From contig JACJGO010000010.1 of assembly GCA_014163555.1 (NCBI GenBank), positions 62,001 to 126,000 on the forward strand: a DNA stretch of 64,000 nt, read 5' to 3'. The position numbers and the translations under genes were made by a program. The notes beneath the pieces were generated by a model. The model worked only from the letters and a program-made list of their open reading frames with translations, searched no databases and was not told the origin of the DNA. Shown here piece by piece: positions 12,103 to 24,880 of this stretch (position 1 is its first letter; each line of letters begins with the position of its first letter). Source of the stretch: Flavisolibacter longurius. Its GTDB lineage: Bacteria > Bacteroidota > Bacteroidia > Chitinophagales > Chitinophagaceae.

Positions 12103-15030
12103 TTACGCTTGCTTCATTCCGATCTTTTTCATTGCGGTTACTTCCACACTGTACACGCCAAAATCATCCACCACCTTGCCGCGCAGGTGATAATACCCTT
12201 TTCCGGTCAAGGGGTGCCGGTCGGCCACCTGCGGAAAATGAACGCTGTCCAGCCAGTCGCCGGCAGGATCGATAAAGGTTCCGAAATACATCAACTCTCC
12301 TTTTATGGTACGCACCGGTTTTTGTGTAATGTAATACGCCATTACCTCTACTTCCTTGTCAACATGATGCGCCAGGCTTTTTGCCGGCACAAACCGGCTT
12401 TTGTCAAATTCGATCAGTGAAAACGGATCACATAGCGGAAAGCCAAGCAACTCCATTTCATCCAGCGCATCTTCCAACGCGGTTTGATGAAGTGCCGGCA
12501 GCGTGAATGTTTTTGGCGTTTCAGCAAAAGGAATGGTCGCCACCCCTTGTGTTTTCTTCACCCTTTTGTGCAGGAAGTTGGCCTCCCAAAGCAATTCTTT
12601 TTTGTTTTTGCCCGTAAAGCGGAACGCTCCTGCGCGGATCAGGATGTTGAGCTGCTCCGGACCCGTTCCGGAGCGTTCAATAAAATCGTACAGGTTCAGG
12701 AAAGCGCCGTGCTGCGATCGTTCGTGAAGGAAGTTTTCAATGGTGGCATTCTCCAGGCTTTTGACGTGTACAAATCCCATATACACATCCTGTCCCCGGA
12801 TGGTAGTGAGCACTTCACTGTTGTTGATACAGGGTGCCTGCACCTTGCCGCCTGCCCTGCGCAGTTCATGAAAATAAAGTTCCGTTGAATAAAATCCGCC
12901 AAAGTTGTTGATAACCGCTACCATAAACTCCAGCGGATAGTAAGTTTTCAAATAGAGACTTTGGTAGCTTTCCACGGCAAACGAGGCGGAATGCGCTTTT
13001 GAAAAAGAATAACCACCAAAGGATTCTATCTGCCGCCACACTTCTTTTGTAATCGTATCGGGATAACCAAAGGAAGTACAGTTGGCAAAGAATTTTTCCC
13101 TGATCCGATCGAATTCTTTTCGTCCCCGGTATTTACCGCTCATGGCCCGACGCAGCACATCGGCCTCTCCCATATCGAGACCTGCAAAATGGTGTGCAAT
13201 CTTGATCACATCTTCCTGGTACACCATTACCCCGTAGGTTTCTTCCAGCAGTTCTTTCATTTTGGGATGCAGGTATTCAAATTTGTCCGGATTATGAAAG
13301 CGGTAAATGTATTCCCGCATCATACCCGATTGTGCTACACCCGGACGGATGATGGAACTGGCCGCAACAAGGGTGATGTAATCATCGCAGCGAAGCTTTT
13401 GAAGGAGTTGCCGCATGGCGGGACTTTCAATATAAAAACAACCGATGGTGTCTGCCCGTCTGATTTGTTCGGCCACCTGTTTGTCGGTTTTGAATTTTTC
13501 CACCTCACGGATGTCAATCGTTTTGCTCCTGTTTTCCCGCACCAGTTGAATGGCGTCCTTTATATGACCAAGACCCCGCTGGGAAAGGATATCCAGTTTA
13601 TACAAACCCACTTTTTCCGCAACAAACATATCGATCTGGGTCGTTGCAAAACCTTTGGGCGGCATGATGAGTGCCGTGTACTGGCAAAGAGGTTCATCGG
13701 AGATCAGCAAACCACCGGGGTGGATACTGCTGTAGTTGGGAAAATCCTGCAGCAATGCGCCGTATTTTAGAATGTATTGCTGTATTTTATCTTCGCCCAG
13801 CTTTGCTTTCGGGTTGTTGGCGATGGCGTCCACTTCGTGTTTGGGCAATCCGAAAACCTTGGCCAACTCCCGCAGGATGGCATTGTACTGAAAGGTATTG
13901 AACATACCCAGCAGCGCCACATGTTCGCGGCCATAACGTTTGAACACATAATCGATTATCTCATCACGGTCCTTCCAGGAAAAATCAATGTCGAAATCCG
14001 GTGGTGAATTGCGATAAGGGTTTAAAAAACGCTCAAAATACAGGTCCAAATCTATAGGGTTAACATCGGTAATCTCCAGGCAGTAGGCCACAATGGAATT
14101 GGCACCGCTGCCGCGGCCCACATAATAAAATCCGCGGCTTTGTGCATAGCGGATCAGGTCCCAGGTAATGAGAAAGTAGGCATTAAAATGAAGCCGGTTG
14201 ATGATCGCCAGTTCTTTGCGCACTCTTTCAGTCGCCACCCGGTTGCTGGCGCCATAGCGTTTGTGAAGACCATCCATGGCAAGTTTTTCCAGCAGAATCC
14301 GATCGTCTTCTGCTGTTGCCGAAAACACCTTTTTGTTTTTGTCGGTGGTGAAGTCCAATGCACATTCGCAACGATCCAAAACATGGAGTGTATTGGTGAT
14401 GATGAACGGGTATTGTGCAAAGGCAGCCAGCACCTGCGCCGGCGACAGGAAAAATTCATCGGTTGCTGCAATCTCGCTGGCAGTCTGCTTGCTCAGGATA
14501 ATGTTTTTATCAATGGCACGCAGCAGGCGGTGAAGATTGTAGGTTACTTTGTCTTTATATGTCACTGGCTGCAACACCACCAGCTTATGACGCAGCGCCT
14601 TTACATCAACCGCAAACAATTTGTTTACCTGCGAAGGGCGAATACCGACCAGCTCATTTTCGACCAGTGATTGTGGCACCTGTTGCAGCGAGTAAATGAT
14701 CCACACATCTTCCGAAAAAAACGGTCGGTCGGGAAACGGTTTTTCCCCTTGCAGGTGCTGCGTCAAAAACGTGTTGATGGCCAGCAGGCCACTATTGTTC
14801 TTCGCCAACAGCACATAACAAAACTGGTCGCCATTTCGGATTTCAACACCCAGTACCGGTTTGATATTGCTTTCTTTACAAAACGCATAAAAATCCCACC
14901 AGTCAGAGGTATTGTTGATATTGGTGAGCGCCATGGCAGAGACGCCGTTATCAGAACCTGCTTTTACAAGTTGTTCGGTTGAGAACGTGCCGTAACGGAA
15001 CGAGAAATATGTTTTACAATTCAGGTACAT
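12103..15030 (-). CDS. DNA polymerase III alpha-subunit paralogue (DnaE-type, mutasome)
   Basis: A C-family DNA polymerase of 975 residues, shorter than replicative DnaE (about 1,160) and DnaE2 (about 1,050-1,100). The polymerase metal ligands are intact: Asp347 and Asp349 in PDFDIDF and Asp480 in LYKLDILSQRG. A C-terminal OB-fold-like segment follows but no long tau-binding tail. The N-terminal PHP domain is eroded: the usual His of the first motif is Tyr (TYFSFRYGT) and the second motif reads ALTNINNT instead of a D-H-D pattern. It lies 10 bases after the dinB stop, so the two form one operon. A translesion or mutagenic role is inferred by analogy with ImuB-DnaE2 cassettes. Confidence 0.9.
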   Translation of the reverse strand: MYLNCKTYFSFRYGTFSTEQLVKAGSDNGVSAMALTNINNTSDWWDFYAFCKESNIKPVLGVEIRNGDQFCYVLLAKNNSGLLAINTFLTQHLQGEKPFPDRPFFSEDVWIIYSLQQVPQSLVENELVGIRPSQVNKLFAVDVKALRHKLVVLQPVTYKDKVTYNLHRLLRAIDKNIILSKQTASEIAATDEFFLSPAQVLAAFAQYPFIITNTLHVLDRCECALDFTTDKNKKVFSATAEDDRILLEKLAMDGLHKRYGASNRVATERVRKELAIINRLHFNAYFLITWDLIRYAQSRGFYYVGRGSGANSIVAYCLEITDVNPIDLDLYFERFLNPYRNSPPDFDIDFSWKDRDEIIDYVFKRYGREHVALLGMFNTFQYNAILRELAKVFGLPKHEVDAIANNPKAKLGEDKIQQYILKYGALLQDFPNYSSIHPGGLLISDEPLCQYTALIMPPKGFATTQIDMFVAEKVGLYKLDILSQRGLGHIKDAIQLVRENRSKTIDIREVEKFKTDKQVAEQIRRADTIGCFYIESPAMRQLLQKLRCDDYITLVAASSIIRPGVAQSGMMREYIYRFHNPDKFEYLHPKMKELLEETYGVMVYQEDVIKIAHHFAGLDMGEADVLRRAMSGKYRGRKEFDRIREKFFANCTSFGYPDTITKEVWRQIESFGGYSFSKAHSASFAVESYQSLYLKTYYPLEFMVAVINNFGGFYSTELYFHELRRAGGKVQAPCINNSEVLTTIRGQDVYMGFVHVKSLENATIENFLHERSQHGAFLNLYDFIERSGTGPEQLNILIRAGAFRFTGKNKKELLWEANFLHKRVKKTQGVATIPFAETPKTFTLPALHQTALEDALDEMELLGFPLCDPFSLIEFDKSRFVPAKSLAHHVDKEVEVMAYYITQKPVRTIKGELMYFGTFIDPAGDWLDSVHFPQVADRHPLTGKGYYHLRGKVVDDFGVYSVEVTAMKKIGMKQA

Positions 15031-15040
15031 GGTAGTCCAT

Positions 15041-16195
15041 TTACAGTAGTCCGCTGGCCCGCATAATCAGGTAACGGCCAAAGCGACCGTTCAACTTGTC
15101 GATTGCCTGGTATAATTTGATCAGATCATCCGTATCGTCGAACATGGAGATCTGGTAATTGCCCGGTACAAGATGCGAGAACTTCACGCCAAGCAATCGA
15201 ACGAGCAGCCGCCTGTCGTAAAGTTTATCGAACAGCTCTTTTACTTTTTCCAGGAGCAGGTGATCAAGGGCCGTGTAGGGAATGATGCATTGCTTGCTAA
15301 CCGTATCGAAGTTGGCGAAGCGGACCTTTACCGTGATGCAGCCGGTAAGCTTGTTCTGCTGCCGGAGCTCGAAAGCGATCTTTTCGGTCATTTGTACAAG
15401 CTGGGCATGCATAAACCGGATGTCGATGGTATCACTTTCAAAAGTGTTTTCGGTGCTGATGCTTTTTCGCTCCTGGTACGGAACCACCGGTGTTTCATCG
15501 ATGCCATTGGAACGCCGCCAGAGCTCAATACCGTTCTTACCCAAAAGATTTTCCATCATCTCACATGGAATCTCGCTGAGAGTGCGGATGTCATGAACCC
15601 CCATTTGTTTGAGCAGTAAACCCGTCTTTTCACCAACCATCGGCAGCTTGGTCACCGGCAGTGGTGCCAGGAAAGATTTTTCTTCCCCAAAAGCTATCTC
15701 CATCTGGCCATTGGGTTTGGCCTCATCCGTGGCCACCTTGCTTACCAGTTTGTTGGCCGCCATTCCGTAGGATACGGGAAGGCCTGTTTCCCTGTGAATG
15801 GTTTGCTTTAATTCGGCGGTGTACCGGCTGCACCCAAAAAACTTATCCATTCCTGTTAGGTCCACGTAAAACTCGTCGATGCTCGCTTTTTCAAACCGGG
15901 GAACTTTTTCCTTTACAATCTCTGTGACCAGGCGTGAATATTTGCTGTAAGCATCCATATCACCAGAAAGCACAATCGCCTGCGGACAAAGCCTGCGGGC
16001 CAATTTCATAGGCATGGCCGAATGCACACCAAACCGGCGGGCTTCGTAGCTGCATGCGGCTACCACAGCACGGTCACTTTGTCCGCCAATCAGGAGCGGT
16101 TTACCTTTCAGTTTGCTGTTCTTGAGACACTCCACGCTTACAAAAAACGTGTCCATGTCGAGATGAGCAATGGTTCTGTGCGGGGTTAGAAGCAT
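15041..16195 (-). CDS. dinB: DNA polymerase IV (Y family)
   Basis: A 384-residue translesion polymerase. Catalytic acidic residues are Asp13 in HLDMDTFF and Asp107-Glu108 in ASIDEFYVDL; the aromatic pair Phe17-Phe18 includes the steric gate. The palm/finger pattern MAANKLVSKVATDEAKPNG and a complete little-finger domain follow, so unlike ImuB it should be active. ATG at 16195 chosen over an in-frame TTG at 16222. It is the first gene of a dinB-dnaE operon with a perfect palindrome 41 bases upstream of the start, suggesting damage-responsive control. Confidence 0.93.
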   Translation of the reverse strand: MLLTPHRTIAHLDMDTFFVSVECLKNSKLKGKPLLIGGQSDRAVVAACSYEARRFGVHSAMPMKLARRLCPQAIVLSGDMDAYSKYSRLVTEIVKEKVPRFEKASIDEFYVDLTGMDKFFGCSRYTAELKQTIHRETGLPVSYGMAANKLVSKVATDEAKPNGQMEIAFGEEKSFLAPLPVTKLPMVGEKTGLLLKQMGVHDIRTLSEIPCEMMENLLGKNGIELWRRSNGIDETPVVPYQERKSISTENTFESDTIDIRFMHAQLVQMTEKIAFELRQQNKLTGCITVKVRFANFDTVSKQCIIPYTALDHLLLEKVKELFDKLYDRRLLVRLLGVKFSHLVPGNYQISMFDDTDDLIKLYQAIDKLNGRFGRYLIMRASGLL

Positions 16196-16235
16196 AAGGA
16201 GTTGGTTCAAATACAGCGCCAAATTACTAATTATT

Positions 16236-18732: not shown

Positions 18733-19167
18733 CTAGGCGAACAATTTTTCAACTTCACGGTCTCGGATATCATTGAGTGTTCTTCTTTCCAGTACCCGTA
18801 AAATGGCATCCCTTGCTTCTTTCATAATGGGACTAATGCCGCAAATTTTTTCATCACAATTTTCACAGGGTTTGTAGAAATACAGACTGGCACAACTGAG
18901 AAGAGCGATCGGTCCATCAACAATACGGATAATACGGGCCAATGGAATCTTTTTAGGCGCCTCGGCCAACCGGTAGCCACCATTCCGGCCGCGAATGCTG
19001 ATCAGGATTTCATGATTCCGGAGTTCGCAAAGAATGGCTTCCAAAAACTTGATGGGAATGTTTTTTTCACGGGCGATGGTGCCAATAAGCACAGGCGTTT
19101 CGTCTTTGTAATGATTGGCCAGATAAGCCAGGGCCTGCAAGGCATATTTTGTTTTCTGATTTAACAT
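18733..19167 (-). CDS. Rrf2 family transcriptional regulator with a four-cysteine cluster
   Basis: A 144-residue winged-helix regulator beginning MLNQKTKYALQALAYLA, typical of Rrf2, with the wing motif SIRGRNGGYRLA. The effector loop has Cys92, Cys101, Cys104 and Cys109, resembling the cluster-binding loop of IscR/NsrR, so an iron-sulfur cluster or a thiol-based signal is plausible; CymR of the same family senses cysteine status through a partner. It is divergent from the poly-Cys leader ORF and the receptor/YeiH genes, which are its likely targets. ATG at 19167 chosen by family N-terminus. Confidence 0.9.
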   Translation of the reverse strand: MLNQKTKYALQALAYLANHYKDETPVLIGTIAREKNIPIKFLEAILCELRNHEILISIRGRNGGYRLAEAPKKIPLARIIRIVDGPIALLSCASLYFYKPCENCDEKICGISPIMKEARDAILRVLERRTLNDIRDREVEKLFA

Positions 19168-19185
19168 GGATTGTTTTTCCAGCCA

Positions 19186-19217
19186 CAAATATCAGGCATC
19201 GGCAATGGATTTACAAC
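19186..19217 (-). promoter_or_regulatory. candidate promoter of the Rrf2 gene
   Basis: On the reverse strand GTTG is followed after 20 bases by GATATTTG, one base off the TAnnTTTG -7 consensus. The -7 element ends 18 bases before the start codon, giving a very short leader. Confidence 0.45.
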
Positions 19218-19399
19218 GGCACCTCTACGGATTTTAACGAAGTCTGCTCACGCAAAGAACAGAATCTGTTTTTAAACGAAGGAAAAAACAACTTTTCTGC
19301 AATCAAGGCAAGTAGAATCAAAATTGATCAGGATACTTTTTCTATCGAATGTGAACAGGATTTTGAAGTGTAAGCACGCCAAATTTTAATATAAGTAGC

Positions 19400-19415
19400 A
19401 CAACAAAGTTGTTGT
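19400..19415. promoter_or_regulatory. inverted repeat ACAACAA-AG-TTGTTGT
   Basis: A perfect 7-bp inverted repeat with a 2-base spacer. Its core CAACAA/TTGTTG is shared with the repeat at 19568-19590, which suggests the same protein could bind both. It lies about 230 bases upstream of the Rrf2 start. Confidence 0.4.
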
Positions 19416-19522
19416 ACACGACCACACTCCCGCTTACCTGTATCTACAACAAAACAATTTTCATCATTTTTTTTACCGGATCAGCAACCACTAAATCGTT
19501 GAATGGGAATACAAACGGGTTG

Positions 19523-19536
19523 TTTATACGTATAAA
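19523..19536. promoter_or_regulatory. 14-bp perfect palindrome TTTATACGTATAAA
   Basis: A fully symmetric 14-base site with no spacer, 45 bases upstream of the -35-region inverted repeat of the leader promoter. It is AT-rich, so chance cannot be excluded, but its position suits an activator or repressor site. Confidence 0.35.
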
Positions 19537-19567
19537 ATTATAGAAGCAATCACTTCCTATTAGGAAC

Positions 19568-19590
19568 GCCAACAAAAAAATTTTGTTGGC
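19568..19590. promoter_or_regulatory. 10-bp perfect inverted repeat overlapping the leader promoter
   Basis: GCCAACAAAA and TTTTGTTGGC form a perfect 10-bp inverted repeat with a 3-base spacer. The right arm contains the TTTG -33 element of the leader promoter, so a bound protein would directly affect transcription. The divergent Rrf2 regulator is the obvious candidate ligand. Confidence 0.6.
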
Positions 19591-19614
19591 ATTCAAACCA
19601 GACAACTATATTTG
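19582..19614 (+). promoter_or_regulatory. promoter of the poly-Cys leader / receptor / YeiH operon
   Basis: TTTG at 19582-19585 and TATATTTG at 19607-19614 with a 21-base spacer match the Bacteroidota consensus TTTG-N19-21-TAnnTTTG exactly. Transcription would start near 19620, about 35 bases before the leader ATG. Confidence 0.65.
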
Positions 19615-19655
19615 CCTATATAATTAGTAGGGATTTATTTTTATAACATCTTCGC

Positions 19656-19760
19656 ATGAAAAAGACAACAGTAAAACCAACGATGACAACTGTATGCAAA
19701 GCCTTTGAATCTATGGCGTATACTTGTTGTTGTTGCTGTTGTATTACTACATGCTGTTGA
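19656..19760 (+). CDS. poly-cysteine leader peptide (34 aa), candidate cysteine-responsive attenuator
   Basis: A short ORF running MKKTTVKPTM...FESMAYT, then six consecutive Cys codons, ITT and a final Cys pair before TGA. It has 9 Cys in 34 residues, eight of them in the last 11. It starts about 35 bases after a consensus promoter and precedes a 316-base untranslated leader and a receptor/YeiH operon. Such a peptide is a poor candidate for a metal-binding protein but is what a ribosome-stalling sensor of cysteinyl-tRNA supply would look like. Poly-cysteine leader ORFs with this role are known in mycobacteria; their use in Bacteroidota is inference. Coding is supported by ATG, promoter and composition, not by homology. 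Confidence 0.7.
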   Translation: MKKTTVKPTMTTVCKAFESMAYTCCCCCCITTCC

Positions 19761-20076
19761 CGCGAACCCAATTTCAAAGAACAGCCCTTCCACACACGAT
19801 TGCTTCAGTTAGGTGATTGAATTTGATCAAAAGATTTATTGTGCCTGTACTTACCGGTGCACAGCAAATCCGCAAACAAAACAATTGAAGTAAACCATAG
19901 TATATGCCAACGCTCCTCTCTTATCCGAATAAGTGCAGATTAATCTCCTGTTCACTCACACCATCTGCGTTCCGATGTTGTTGATTTCAGCAGTTCAGCA
20001 AACGATGCGCTGAAAGAACTATCGAACAAAATTTCTCTTCTCCCATTCCAAATTTTTTCTACTCACAACAAAAATT
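19761..20076 (+). promoter_or_regulatory. long untranslated leader between the poly-Cys ORF and the receptor gene
   Basis: A 316-base gene-free stretch. It contains a hairpin with arms TGTGCC and GG(T)GCACA at 19840-19863, another with perfect arms TTCAGC/GCTGAA at 19994-20014, and a symmetric TTGAA-TTTG-ATCAA sequence at 19817-19830 that is one base off an FNR/CRP-type box. No hairpin is followed by a strong T run, so a classical terminator is not obvious; folding or Rho-dependent control could still apply. Confidence 0.5.
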
Positions 20077-22626
20077 ATGAGAAAGCTCCTGATTTTCACC
20101 CTTACAATTTTATCGACCGCCACCTACGCTCAAACGGTTATCACCGGTGTCATTAAAGACAGTTTGGGAAATGCTTTAAGCAGCACATCCGTAACGATAA
20201 AAGGATCCAATGCTTTTTCACTCGCAAATGATAAGGGCGAATTTGGCATTCGCACCAAAACGCCACCACCATTCACATTAATCATTACCGCTGTAGGTTT
20301 TAAACAACAGGAGGTGCCAGTACAGGAAATTACAACAGCACCAATCGCCATTACCCTGGCAGAAAATACCGAGTTGACAGAGATGGTGATCACCTCCCGC
20401 CGCCGGATTGAAACTGCCCAAACGGTTCCGATACCGATATCTGTGATTGGCGGCGCACAGGTCGCTGATGCCGGTGCATTTAATGTAAACCGGCTGAAAG
20501 AATTGGTTCCTACTGTTCAGCTGTATTCGTCCAATCCACGTAACACCACCCTGAATGTGCGTGGCTTGGGTTCTACATTCGGACTTACCAATGATGGCAT
20601 TGACCCGGGTGTTGGCTTCTATGTCGATGGCGTGTACTATGCACGGCCGGCTGCTACCGCACTGGATTTTATTGATGTAGAACGGGTTGAGGTGTTGCGC
20701 GGACCGCAGGGCACCCTGTTTGGCAAAAACACAACGGCCGGAGCGTTTAATGTGACCACCAAAAAACCAAGCTTCATTCCTGGGGCCAATTTTGAAGTGA
20801 GTTATGGAAACTATGGATATATACAGGCAAAAAGCTCGATCACCGGAGCGTTGGTTAAAAACAAACTGGCTGCACGCCTCTCCTTTTCCGGTACCCAACG
20901 CGATGGTGTGTTGTACAATGTGGCTACTCAGCAAAATGTGAATAACCTGAACAACATCGGCTTTCGCGGTCAGTTGTTATACACACCTTCCGATAAAGTA
21001 AGCATCACCCTGATAGGCGATGCCACCCAACAGCGGCCTAACGGGTATGCGCAGGTGTTTGCCGGCGTTGCACCAACCCAACGGGCTGCCTACAGGCAAT
21101 TTGAGCAAATTATTTCGGACCTGAACTACCAGCTTCCCAGCCGCAATCCTTTCGATCGGTTGATTGACCACAACACACCCTGGCGTTCAGGCAATGACCT
21201 GGGCGGTGTTTCGCTCAATTTCGATATTAAGCTGGGTGGTGGAACCCTCACTTCCACATCAGCATGGCGTTATTGGAACTGGGACCCTTCGAATGACAGG
21301 GATTTTACCGGGCTTTCAATCCTAAGCCTTTCCCAAGCCACTTCCAAACACCAGCAATGGACGCAGGAGATTCGATATGCGGGAAATTTATCTTCCCGAT
21401 TGAGTGGCGTGGTGGGCATATTTGCCATTGGCCAGGATTTGAAAACCGATCCTGAACACATTGAAGAATCCGGAAGTGATCAATGGCGTTTTTCGCAAAG
21501 CACCACCAGCGAAAAATGGAAAACACCGGGACTGTTTGAAGGCTTTGGCATCAAAACACGTTCACAGTTAAAAACCTTTGGCGGCGCTGTTTTCGGACAA
21601 TTGGACTGGGCCATCACACAACGCCTGCATGTGTTGCCCGGACTTCGTTATAATTACGACAAAAAAGATGTGGACTATCAACGCAGCACGTATGGTGGCC
21701 TGCAGACAACTGAGGCAGAGTTAATTGCCCTCAAAAATCTTGTGTACACAAATCAGGCGTTTGCCGCCAATGTGGATGAAAGCAATCTTTCCGGACAATT
21801 GACAATTTCGTATAAAGTTTCCTCACGTATCAACAGCTTTGCCACGGTTTCTACCAGTTACAAACCCATTGGAGTTAACCTGGGTGGATTGCCTACTTCC
21901 AGTGGCAAGGTGATGGTGGAACTGGCCCGCATTAAACCCGAATATGTCACTCATTACGAAGCAGGAATAAAAACCAATCCTGCAGAAAATGCAACGCTGA
22001 ATTTTGTGGTTCACAACACCCACATTAAAGACTATCAAACGCAGGTGCAGACGGCTGAAGTTGGTGTAAACCGTGGCTATCTGGCCAATGCAGAAAAAGT
22101 ACGGGTACGGGGTGCCGAACTGGATGCCACCATTCGTACCTCTCAGCACTTTTCCCTGTACGGTTCAGTGGCTTATACAGACGCTAAATATGTTTCCTTC
22201 ACCAACGCACCGGTACCGCTGGAAGAAACCGGTGGACCATCCGCATTCAAAGATGTTTCCGGTGGCGCTCTTCCGGGGGTCTCCAAGTGGGTGTCCTCCG
22301 TAGGCGGTGAATTTTCTTCGAAAGAAAGCAAGGCACTGGGCCAGGAAGGAAAATATTTTATCGCATTCGATACCTATTACCGTTCTTCTTTTTCCTCCAG
22401 CCCCTCTCCTTCCCTCTACCTGAATATTGATGGATATGCTTTGCTTAACGGTAGAGTGGGTTTCAAAGCAACCAAGGGACTATCGTTTTTTGCCTGGGGT
22501 CGTAATCTTTTAAATAAAGATTATTTTGAACAGTTGCTGCCCGCTGCCGGTAACGCCGGTCATTATGCCTGTGTATTGGGCGATCCGAGAACCTATGGGG
22601 TAACACTGCGTTATGCTGTACGATAG
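20077..22626 (+). CDS. TonB-dependent outer-membrane receptor with carboxypeptidase-regulatory-like domain
   Basis: An 849-residue receptor. It has a signal peptide (MRKLLIFTLTILSTATYAQ), a CarboxypepD_reg-like beta-sandwich at about residues 20-95, a plug domain with VLRGPQGTLFGKNTTAGAFNV at about 205-225, and a beta barrel ending in a typical aromatic-rich strand (YGVTLRYAVR). The plug wording is closer to proteobacterial-style receptors than to SusC, and no SusD partner follows. It is followed by a putative sulfate exporter, which suggests a sulfur-containing substrate such as a sulfonate or sulfate ester (inference). Confidence 0.92.
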   Translation: MRKLLIFTLTILSTATYAQTVITGVIKDSLGNALSSTSVTIKGSNAFSLANDKGEFGIRTKTPPPFTLIITAVGFKQQEVPVQEITTAPIAITLAENTELTEMVITSRRRIETAQTVPIPISVIGGAQVADAGAFNVNRLKELVPTVQLYSSNPRNTTLNVRGLGSTFGLTNDGIDPGVGFYVDGVYYARPAATALDFIDVERVEVLRGPQGTLFGKNTTAGAFNVTTKKPSFIPGANFEVSYGNYGYIQAKSSITGALVKNKLAARLSFSGTQRDGVLYNVATQQNVNNLNNIGFRGQLLYTPSDKVSITLIGDATQQRPNGYAQVFAGVAPTQRAAYRQFEQIISDLNYQLPSRNPFDRLIDHNTPWRSGNDLGGVSLNFDIKLGGGTLTSTSAWRYWNWDPSNDRDFTGLSILSLSQATSKHQQWTQEIRYAGNLSSRLSGVVGIFAIGQDLKTDPEHIEESGSDQWRFSQSTTSEKWKTPGLFEGFGIKTRSQLKTFGGAVFGQLDWAITQRLHVLPGLRYNYDKKDVDYQRSTYGGLQTTEAELIALKNLVYTNQAFAANVDESNLSGQLTISYKVSSRINSFATVSTSYKPIGVNLGGLPTSSGKVMVELARIKPEYVTHYEAGIKTNPAENATLNFVVHNTHIKDYQTQVQTAEVGVNRGYLANAEKVRVRGAELDATIRTSQHFSLYGSVAYTDAKYVSFTNAPVPLEETGGPSAFKDVSGGALPGVSKWVSSVGGEFSSKESKALGQEGKYFIAFDTYYRSSFSSSPSPSLYLNIDGYALLNGRVGFKATKGLSFFAWGRNLLNKDYFEQLLPAAGNAGHYACVLGDPRTYGVTLRYAVR

Positions 22627-22689: not shown

Positions 22690-22751
22690 CCTAAAAGAAA
22701 CGAGCATTCACACAGGATCTTATTGATACATTGCCGTCAGAAACAAAATCA

Positions 22752-24065
22752 ATGGAAGCAAGTACACAAACAAACAAAGGCCAGTTTTCAGAAGATAGTT
22801 GGGCAGTTGCCATCGGCAGTACACTGATTGCGTTGACCCTTCTCCTTGCGTTGCTGAATCCGGCCTATAAATTCACGACACCAAACTACAAATGGCAAAA
22901 CAGTACTGAGCTGTTTAGCAAAGTCTTTTCACCTGGCAATCTGGTGATCATCGTCGGGACCGGGCTTTTGCTGGCGCTAGTGGCTTCTGTTGCCATCCTG
23001 TTTTCAAGGGGAAGTGTAAAAAGGTTCCTGCCCGGATTTGCGATCTTGTACAGTCTGGCTGTATTGTCGTTTGTAATGGCCGGCAATCAATCCCTGAATG
23101 CTTACGGCATCGAGTATGTGATATTTGCCCTGGTTGCGGGTCTTTTGCTCAACAACCTGTTCTCGCTGCCGCGATGGTTAAAAGATGCTGCACGATCAGA
23201 ATTTTTTATCAAAACCGGATTGGTGATACTGGGCAGCAGTGTATTGTTTACTGATATTTTAAAAGCCGGCTTTCCGGGTTTGATTCAGGCCATTTTAGTA
23301 GTTGCTGCGGTGTGGTTTTTTGCTATGTGGCTGAGCCGCCGTTTGAAAGTGGATGATGAATTTGCTGTGATCCTGGCTTCAGCCGTTTCCATTTGTGGTG
23401 TTTCGGCAGCCATTGTGGCCGCCGGGGCCATTGGTGGCGACAAAAAAAAGCTTTCCTATGTCACCACACTGGTTCTTTTGGTCGCGATCCCCATGTTGCT
23501 GTTGCAGCCCTGGGCGGTGAAATATTTTGGCATTCCGGAGATTGTTGGCGGTGCCTGGCTCGGCGGCACACTGGACACAACGGCTTCAGTCACTGCTGCC
23601 TCAGAAATCCTGGGACCACTGGCCGTGAAAGTGGGTGTTATCATCAAGTTCTCGCAAAACGTTCTGATTGGATTGGCAGCGTTTTTCATTGCGTGGTGGT
23701 GGCTTTGGAAAAAGAAAGAAGGCAATCTGCAAACGGGCGAAAAGCCTTCCCTGCAGCTGGTTTGGAGCCGCTTCCCAAAATTTGTGATTGGCTTTATCCT
23801 GGTTTCGCTGCTCTTTTCCTTTATTGTTCCTGCTGCCACCACAAAACAAGTTAGCGGCATGTTGAACAGCCTTCGGTCGGCCTGGTTTGCTTTAGCTTTT
23901 GTAGCAATAGGCATCGAAGCAAGGTTTGCCGATTTGGTAAGCGTTCAGGGAGGAAGACCCGCCATCAGTTTTATTACAGCTCAACTCTTCAATATAATCT
24001 GGACACTGATCGTTGCCTATGTTTTATTCAGTGGACGGTTTTTTTCCTTGCCGGATATCAGATGA
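22752..24065 (+). CDS. YeiH family putative sulfate exporter
   Basis: A 437-residue inner-membrane protein with about ten hydrophobic segments. The motifs VILASAVSICGVSAAIVAAGAIGG and the later GGTLDTTASVTAA are hallmarks of the YeiH/UPF0324 family, annotated as putative sulfate exporters; direct transport data for the family are limited. ATG at 22752 chosen; a TTG 21 bases earlier is in frame. Being behind a poly-Cys leader and a receptor, it probably belongs to a sulfur uptake and balance operon, for example disposing of sulfite or sulfate released from an imported substrate (inference). Confidence 0.88.
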   Translation: MEASTQTNKGQFSEDSWAVAIGSTLIALTLLLALLNPAYKFTTPNYKWQNSTELFSKVFSPGNLVIIVGTGLLLALVASVAILFSRGSVKRFLPGFAILYSLAVLSFVMAGNQSLNAYGIEYVIFALVAGLLLNNLFSLPRWLKDAARSEFFIKTGLVILGSSVLFTDILKAGFPGLIQAILVVAAVWFFAMWLSRRLKVDDEFAVILASAVSICGVSAAIVAAGAIGGDKKKLSYVTTLVLLVAIPMLLLQPWAVKYFGIPEIVGGAWLGGTLDTTASVTAASEILGPLAVKVGVIIKFSQNVLIGLAAFFIAWWWLWKKKEGNLQTGEKPSLQLVWSRFPKFVIGFILVSLLFSFIVPAATTKQVSGMLNSLRSAWFALAFVAIGIEARFADLVSVQGGRPAISFITAQLFNIIWTLIVAYVLFSGRFFSLPDIR

Positions 24066-24112: not shown

Positions 24113-24880
24113 ATGAAGCACAGAAAACTCATCCTGCAAGCCATTTTATTCCTGGCGCTTCCGATATACGGTCTGGCACAACGAAAAGAAATTACGGAAG
24201 AAGAACAAGTATGGCTAGGCTATTTTAATCAAACGCGGTTCTCAGAAAAATGGGGCGGCTGGACCGATGTTCATCTACGCACAAAAGAGAATTTTTTCAC
24301 CCAGTTTTCGCAAGGACTTGTAAGGGTGGGTCTCACCTACTACATAAATAACGACACGAAATTGACAGCCGGCTATTCCTACGTTCATCACTTTCCGGCG
24401 GATAATCATAAAAATATTTCGCAACCGGAGCACAGGCCCTGGCAGCAACTGCAATGGCATACCCGCTTTCAAAAATTACGGATTATGCAGTGGTTCCGCC
24501 TGGAGGAACGCTTTCGACGGAAAATTTTAAACGATAACGAACTGGCCGATGGTTATCACTTCAACTTCCGGGGACGACACAACATACTGGGACAATTTGC
24601 CCTGTGCAGCCAACCCTTCAAACCCGGCACATTTTCATTTGTTTTATCAGATGAAGTGTTCCTGAATTTCGGAAAACAGATTGTTTATAATACGTTTGAC
24701 CAGAACCGGTTGTTTGCAGGTTTCGCATATTATCTCAACGACCACGATAACCTGCAGTTTGGGTATATGAATTTGTTTCAGCAACAAGCTTCCGGCAACC
24801 GATACCGTTCCCTCCACGTAGCAAGAATCTTTTTCTTTCATAACCTTGACTGGCGGAAAAGAAAGGAACCTGCAAAATGA
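24113..24880 (+). CDS. DUF2490 family outer-membrane protein
   Basis: A 255-residue protein with a signal peptide (ending GLAQ) and the DUF2490 pattern EEEQVWLGYFNQTRFSEKWGGWTDVHLR followed by alternating hydrophobic strands and an FRLEERFRRK segment. The family is predicted to form a small outer-membrane beta barrel of unknown function. It starts 47 bases after the YeiH stop and is probably the last gene of that operon. It could be an extra porin for the same substrate, but nothing in the sequence shows this. Confidence 0.85.
   Translation: MKHRKLILQAILFLALPIYGLAQRKEITEEEQVWLGYFNQTRFSEKWGGWTDVHLRTKENFFTQFSQGLVRVGLTYYINNDTKLTAGYSYVHHFPADNHKNISQPEHRPWQQLQWHTRFQKLRIMQWFRLEERFRRKILNDNELADGYHFNFRGRHNILGQFALCSQPFKPGTFSFVLSDEVFLNFGKQIVYNTFDQNRLFAGFAYYLNDHDNLQFGYMNLFQQQASGNRYRSLHVARIFFFHNLDWRKRKEPAK

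Follow-up and report, generated by a model that had tools for sequence, protein, structure and literature searches.

A putative cysteine-responsive poly-Cys leader peptide upstream of a TonB receptor operon in Flavisolibacter longurius, with similar leaders at cysteine and sulfur genes of Chitinophagaceae

Introduction

Poly-Cys leader ORFs have been described for the cys operons of Mycobacterium and Propionibacterium and for Bifidobacterium cbs (Seliverstov 2005, PMC1262725). In the part of that paper cited here, the Actinobacterial leaders carry the Cys run near the stop codon, no conserved terminator was reported, the spacer is pyrimidine-rich, Rho was proposed to act on it, and tnaC is given as the model for Rho-type attenuation (PMC1262725). 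In Rhodobacterales, uORFC-8-2 is located upstream of cysS and contains tandem Cys codons, for which the cited portion of the source proposes ribosome-mediated attenuation (PMC8632094). The poly-Cys leader type is known from Actinobacteria; Bacteroidota is a phylum for which we found no report of such leaders among the top-ranked matches of the open-licence literature, and among the same matches leader-peptide control in Bacteroidota appeared little documented. The mycobacterial case has been explained by a stalled ribosome that exposes a hidden start region, and a 2020 mycobacterial study by Canestrari has cysteine-responsive attenuation in its title. The tnaC leader of the E. coli tryptophanase operon senses free tryptophan via an arrest peptide.

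Here we describe a poly-Cys ORF in a 64,000-nt stretch of the Flavisolibacter longurius genome (the window) and its counterparts in related genomes. These ORFs are like the Actinobacterial leaders in being short, in having the Cys run near the stop, in preceding cys genes and in having a C-rich or pyrimidine-rich spacer. They come from another phylum, and the likeness is one of description. Unlike the Actinobacterial leaders, they also precede TonB receptor, cysS and metY genes, and five of those at cysH follow a SAM-I riboswitch. The cysS leaders share with uORFC-8-2 the tandem Cys codons in an upstream ORF; according to the cited portion of its description, uORFC-8-2 has two Cys codons and a structured element with an intrinsic terminator (PMC8632094), whereas the cysS leaders found here have Cys runs of up to five at their end and little consistent structure (z below -2 in 1/8).

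The leader ORF and its promoter

The leader region of the window contains the following elements.

19656..19760, + strand: leader ORF of 34 codons with stop TGA at 19758-19760; peptide MKKTTVKPTMTTVCKAFESMAYTCCCCCCITTCC
19725..19742, + strand: six consecutive Cys codons (TGT TGT TGT TGC TGT TGT), the presumed stall site
19761..20076, + strand: untranslated spacer of 316 nt from the leader stop to the TonB receptor
19581..19614, + strand: presumed Bacteroidota-type promoter, TTTTG at 19581-19585 and TATATTTG at 19607-19614, found by eye
19564..19594, no strand assigned: inverted repeat GAACGCCAACAAAA / TTTTGTTGGCATTC, a candidate operator (arms of 14 nt, 3 nt apart, 93% complementary)

The preliminary description had reported a 34-codon ORF with six Cys codons in a row and a last Cys pair, and the coordinates were as it gave them (the closing pair occupies 19752-19757); the gap that it described as a 316-base untranslated stretch before a TonB receptor was measured at 316 nt. 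Searches with the leader ORF gave nothing in Pfam at E 0.001 or in NCBIfam at E 1. An Rfam scan of the window gave no family at gathering score, SAM-I (RF00162) included.

A consensus promoter had been placed about 35 bases upstream of the ORF. A sigma-70 scan of both strands of 18800-20600, with a model of the E. coli type, detected no promoter. By eye, TATATTTG together with TTTTG forms what we take to be a Bacteroidota-type promoter box, 41 nt before the leader ATG. The inverted repeat at 19564-19594 spans the presumed -33 region of this promoter and is a candidate operator.

A second leader ahead of cysH in the same genome

With the leader peptide as query, tblastn detected another such ORF in the same genome, MKKTTTHLFKTTVSKLSYTAASCCCCCTLSCCFTA, and one, MKKTTTFPSKTTVANAFKFAAACCCCQKFAACCCKC, in a genome of the same genus; they stand 72 and 74 nt before cysH, respectively. 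The own-genome cysH leader peptide is 53% identical to the window peptide over 34 aa. Its operon reads cysH, cysD, cysN, cysE, cysK, uroporphyrinogen methyltransferase and sulfite reductase flavoprotein, with gene names assigned from translations; the cysH homologs in L065, L131 and L143 match PF01507. DNA blocks common to the window leader and both cysH leaders extend from the ATG to the CGATTGCTT spacer element, and among them is CGATTGCTTC at 19797-19806 in the window spacer. These shared blocks make it probable that the receptor and cysH leaders have a common origin.

TGY repeats are common and, where inspected, mostly intragenic, which would fit a chance ORF in an intergenic repeat. A search for five in-frame TGY codons listed 12 matches in the 5.66-Mb genome. 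Three lie in the two leaders (the window ORF twice, the cysH leader once), one (L147) is in a short ATG ORF on the strand opposite to a long open frame, and no short ATG ORF was found at the remaining listed places. Against a chance origin, the two leaders of this genome are alike, one preceding a transport operon and the other a sulfur operon; the survey counts against reverse strand and resampling, given below, also contradict it, and we consider such an origin hardly credible. The own-genome cysS and metY (L452, L453) have no poly-Cys leader.

Poly-Cys leaders in related genomes

We surveyed the upstream stretches of 110 cysH, 46 receptor, 31 cysS and 31 metY genes in Chitinophagaceae genomes. 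For cysH the sample took in 110 of the places that had been listed for 148 genomes, made up of the 30 closest and 80 others, and for the receptor 46 of 49; the cysS sample consisted of the 30 closest of 144 genomes and one chosen, and the metY sample of the 30 closest of 66 genomes and the own-genome metY, so that cysS and metY figures lean to near relatives of the query.

Conserved poly-Cys ORFs, whose absence upstream of homologous operons had been named in advance as refuting the leader reading, were found at all four gene types. Short ATG ORFs encoding CCC were present upstream of cysH in 53/110 loci, receptor in 10/46, cysS in 8/31 and metY in 12/31, counts that take in the window leader and the own-genome cysH leader (nine receptor loci besides the window); the reverse strand gave 0, 1, 0 and 2, respectively, and in each of ten first-order Markov resamplings 0-3 loci of a set had a CCC short ORF. 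No CCC short ORF was seen at 57/110 cysH, 36/46 receptor, 23/31 cysS and 19/31 metY loci. With a relaxed Cys-rich rule there were 63 cysH, 17 receptor, 9 cysS and 17 metY leaders vs 3, 1, 1 and 4 on the reverse strand. The second-commonest triple run was Leu at cysH (19/110 forward, 10 reverse); the rarer Leu, Val and Gln runs probably come from the same repeats read in other frames or on the opposite strand. CCC cysH leaders occurred in 29 of the 53 genera sampled.

The feature was also met in other searches. A gapless pattern search for four Cys codons plus stop, blind to gene identity, gave one intergenic ATG ORF among 28 inspected loci, and that ORF stands 69 nt before a gene that we named cysS (cysteinyl-tRNA synthetase) from sequence and not by a family search. 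In the best 80 CysH loci of named relatives, a relaxed Cys-rich ORF was found upstream of cysH in 13/80 vs 2/80 on the reverse strand, including Sediminibacterium (L065), Rufibacter ruber (L066) and a Saprospiraceae MAG (L143). Fifteen intergenic Cys-rich ORFs were listed in these 80 loci: eight ahead of cysH, two ahead of a Cys/Met-metabolism PLP enzyme gene that is metY-like (L081, L082), one ahead of a porin gene and four elsewhere. A class-wide scan for CCCCC-stop found no intergenic ATG ORF in 30 inspected places of a longer list, and outside Chitinophagaceae the feature looks sparse.

The ORF ahead of the porin gene is in a Mucilaginibacter MAG (L113:9140-9238); it ends in seven Cys codons, 62 nt before a Porin_O_P gene.

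Anatomy of the leaders

The 83 CCC leaders are 12-42 codons long, with a median gap of 65 nt to the gene. Cys is the last residue in 52/83, and in 74/83 the last Cys is followed by no more than two residues. Compared by eye, the N-termini of different genera look mostly unrelated, and the Cys run beside the stop is kept. A comparison of synonymous and non-synonymous change at Cys codons was uninformative, since most of the pairs lacked real homology; in the six closest pairs, 32 Cys codons were the same, one differed synonymously and one non-synonymously. A recurring, Cys-rich coding ORF could instead encode a working small peptide that binds metal or takes part in redox binding and acts away from its own mRNA. 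The seemingly unrelated N-termini beside a constant Cys run argue against this, as do the lack of Pfam (E 0.001) and NCBIfam (E 1) matches and the location of the ORFs directly before cysteine genes, including cysS. We regard it as very improbable, although less so than a chance ORF.

The promoter-like motif TANNTTTG occurs within 150 nt upstream of 53/63 cysH, 14/17 receptor, 7/9 cysS and 8/17 metY leaders vs 46/657 reverse-strand stretches; in the table behind these and the composition and structure figures, the own-genome cysS was entered twice (L323, L453) and receptor locus L231 had a wrong stretch, and none of these three belongs to the receptor leaders or the CCC leaders. The box-to-ATG distance has a median of ~28 nt for cysH leaders and is 4-7 nt for 7/9 cysS leaders. 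The mycobacterial ORFs are termed leaderless, and the motif-based distance of 41 nt in the window would speak against that type.

A second TANNTTTG box is present between leader and cysS in 6/9 loci (e.g. L296, L310, L312), which could reflect a basal promoter that acts past the leader.

In five cysH leaders, among 32 loci scanned, a SAM-I riboswitch (Rfam RF00162) lies 5' of the poly-Cys ORF.

L061:5532-5894: SAM-I, poly-Cys ORF, cysH
L062:9958-10324, - strand: the same order
L065:5609-5916: the same order, from 10 loci scanned
L238 and L400: the same order, from 20 loci scanned

Two further SAM-I matches were set aside, one on the other strand (L250) and one 1.7 kb from cysH (L064). SAM-I followed by a poly-Cys leader makes a serial two-signal control by SAM and cysteine possible at these cysH genes, and of all these findings the tandem is the one most likely to be new.

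A cysteine-responsive leader as the probable explanation

By sequence comparison, a short ORF with its Cys run usually beside the stop recurs past a likely promoter and ahead of cysteine and sulfur genes. We concluded that the window ORF is very probably a cysteine-responsive, cis-acting leader peptide that would gauge charged Cys-tRNA; the preliminary description had read it in this way, and both the homologous operons and the own-genome cysH operon support that reading. The loci that lack a CCC short ORF, the three receptor-YeiH pairs of relatives that have no leader and a window spacer far longer than the medians of relatives weigh against it. With charged Cys-tRNA, the ribosome would pass the Cys codons and leave at the stop, and the bare spacer would then permit an early end of transcription, most likely with Rho. 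When cysteine is short, the ribosome would stall on the Cys run beside the stop and cover the start of the spacer, and with this start shielded RNA polymerase would get to the TonB receptor and YeiH-like genes. The window leader would probably switch sulfur uptake on at low cysteine. This proposal is like tnaC in that a ribosome at or near the leader stop keeps Rho off the adjacent RNA; tnaC senses free tryptophan, whereas the signal here would be uncharged Cys-tRNA at the Cys codons.

A wider picture can be offered tentatively, at somewhat less than even odds: a Chitinophagaceae cysteine regulon with poly-Cys leaders at sulfate assimilation, cysS, metY and receptor genes, a Rho-type output that does without Shine-Dalgarno sites, some cysH mRNAs that read both SAM and cysteine through SAM-I plus a poly-Cys leader, and a window leader that is a recruited copy of the cysH leader. 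The bacterial group of the host makes little use of Shine-Dalgarno sites. The 83 poly-Cys leaders before four gene families, including cysS, provide a testable system for how ribosome stalling is converted into gene control.

The spacer and the possible output step

The first 60 nt past the leader stop at cysH and cysS had a C minus G value of 0.124 vs 0.029 in 311 control intergenic stretches (p 1.7e-15), and among cysH loci the value was 0.083 with a leader vs 0.006 without (p 4e-6), in tests that ignore shared ancestry. Near the gene, the C over G excess of loci with a leader over those without was not clear for receptor (p 0.07), cysS (p 0.15) or metY (p 0.63). The cysH leader regions lacked a consistent fold (mean z -0.67, 7/58 below -2). 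The Cys run paired weakly with the middle of the spacer (mean z -0.56 for cysH and -0.69 for cysS), which leaves some room for structure. A short motif, CGATTGC, was weak and occurred in three cysH spacers. A rho gene is present in the own genome. Since the spacers at cysH are rich in C, poor in G and show no consistent structure, and Rho is present, we favour Rho-type termination as the output step of the window and cysH leaders, tentatively and at a little under an even chance, over translational attenuation. The 316-nt window spacer is long enough to have room for more than one step.

Translational attenuation, in which the Cys run hides the downstream start and a stalled ribosome exposes it, or in which reinitiation feeds the gene, is the next candidate and in our judgement somewhat unlikely. 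A paper that cites the mycobacterial study describes the cysteine genes of M. smegmatis as being under translation attenuation, and in two loci (L389, L409) the Cys codons pair just before cysH. In the four gene sets, no general excess of pairing between Cys run and downstream start region was found: mean z-scores, from mononucleotide shuffles, were -0.23 for cysH, +0.27 for receptor, -0.35 for cysS and +0.67 for metY, and this speaks against the hiding of the start. As to reinitiation, the median gaps of 56-91 nt in the sets of relatives vs 316 nt in the window are long; reinitiation peaks at ~10-16 nt in the cited part of one study (PMC4833913).

In classical attenuation an intrinsic terminator (hairpin plus U-run) would form once the leader is fully translated. 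One structure of the window leader was noted.

Arms 19662-19681 (early codons) and 19726-19745 (Cys codons), + strand: possible hairpin, a candidate pause hairpin, from an inverted-repeat search (20 nt, 80% complementary)

Folding of the window leader gave a similar pairing of early codons and Cys codons, with an overall z of only -1.14. No terminator-like site was found on the + strand of the window spacer, and the sole + strand site was at 20463. In the metY leaders, by comparison, the Cys run paired weakly with early codons (mean z -1.15), and 9/17 share a hairpin, (G)UAUGCC-loop-GGCAUA(C), at the end of the Cys run (L326, L334, L339, L340, L342, L344, L345, L354, L355; also, by eye, L082:2003-2172). 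The hairpin is kept though the peptides end variously in CCMP, CCMPQGIL or CCMPCGIQ. This shared hairpin and a hairpin with T-run between leader and cysH in L143 (by eye) would suit an intrinsic terminator. The absence of a + strand site in the window spacer, the cysH leader regions without consistent structure and the metY hairpins, most of which have no clear U-run after them (L344 is T-rich), make it improbable, more so than translational attenuation. Rho-type termination is retained as the preferred output for the window and cysH leaders.

The receptor operon and neighbouring regulators

The genes around the leader are as follows.

20077..22626, + strand: TonB-dependent receptor (PF00593, PF07715, PF13715)
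22731..24065, + strand: YeiH-like (PF03601) membrane protein gene, 157.8 bits with a cut-off of 24.5
24113..24880, + strand: DUF2490 protein gene (PF10677, 166.2 bits), likely in the same operon
18733..19179, - strand: divergent gene of an Rrf2-family regulator (CymR/IscR superfamily; PF02082, 114.4 bits)

The domain matches (CarboxypepD_reg-like, Plug and TonB barrel) agree with the TonB receptor expected downstream of the leader ORF. The next gene had been called a YeiH-type sulfate exporter; its PF03601 membership held, and 'putative sulfate exporter' is a distant label, with only 80.3 bits to TIGR00698 and a cut-off of 232.6. Receptor orthologs at E <= 1e-120 were present in 49/244 family genomes, and by comparison of the listed places 11 of these 49 carry the ortholog and cysH on one contig, within ~15 kb of each other (G083, G160, G213, G241, G091, G087, G023, G103, G022, G119 and G021); this proximity supports a role of the receptor in sulfur supply. 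The leaders point this TonB receptor family to sulfur or cysteine supply, which the receptor sequence alone does not reveal. The receptor is rarely beside YeiH: of 20 fetched loci with YeiH homologs, three had the receptor ortholog adjacent, and none of these three receptor-YeiH pairs of relatives had a poly-Cys leader. DUF2490-like ORFs were seen by eye 3' of the receptor in L215, L225, L226, L227 and L232.

The best general match of the Rrf2 regulator was TIGR00738, above its cut-off, and the CymR and IscR equivalogs were below theirs. Rrf2 homologs were found upstream of cysH in seven of the 110 survey loci, none of which had a Cys-rich leader (Fisher p 0.002; upstream length fetched 1500 nt for 30 loci and 700 nt for 80). 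Control by a protein and control by a leader may thus be able to stand in for one another. One named locus is an exception, L068, where a divergent Rrf2 gene occurs together with a relaxed Cys-rich ORF; in the window, too, an Rrf2 gene and a poly-Cys leader are both at one operon.

Rrf2 homologs stand just 5' of cysH in Algoriphagus, Cyclobacterium, Cecembia and relatives (L118, L120, L121, L122, L096, L115 and others), where they are a candidate cysteine regulator. A dyad, AGTCTA-N-TAGAC/T, was present in 17/46 receptor upstreams (e.g. L440, L445, L447, L448) and in no cysH, cysS or metY upstream; it is probably an operator, perhaps that of the Rrf2 regulator. Elsewhere in the window, adjacent genes on the - strand at 12103-16222, named from their translations, appear to encode a DnaE-like (DNA polymerase III alpha-type) and a DinB-like (Y-family) polymerase and possibly form a mutagenesis cassette.
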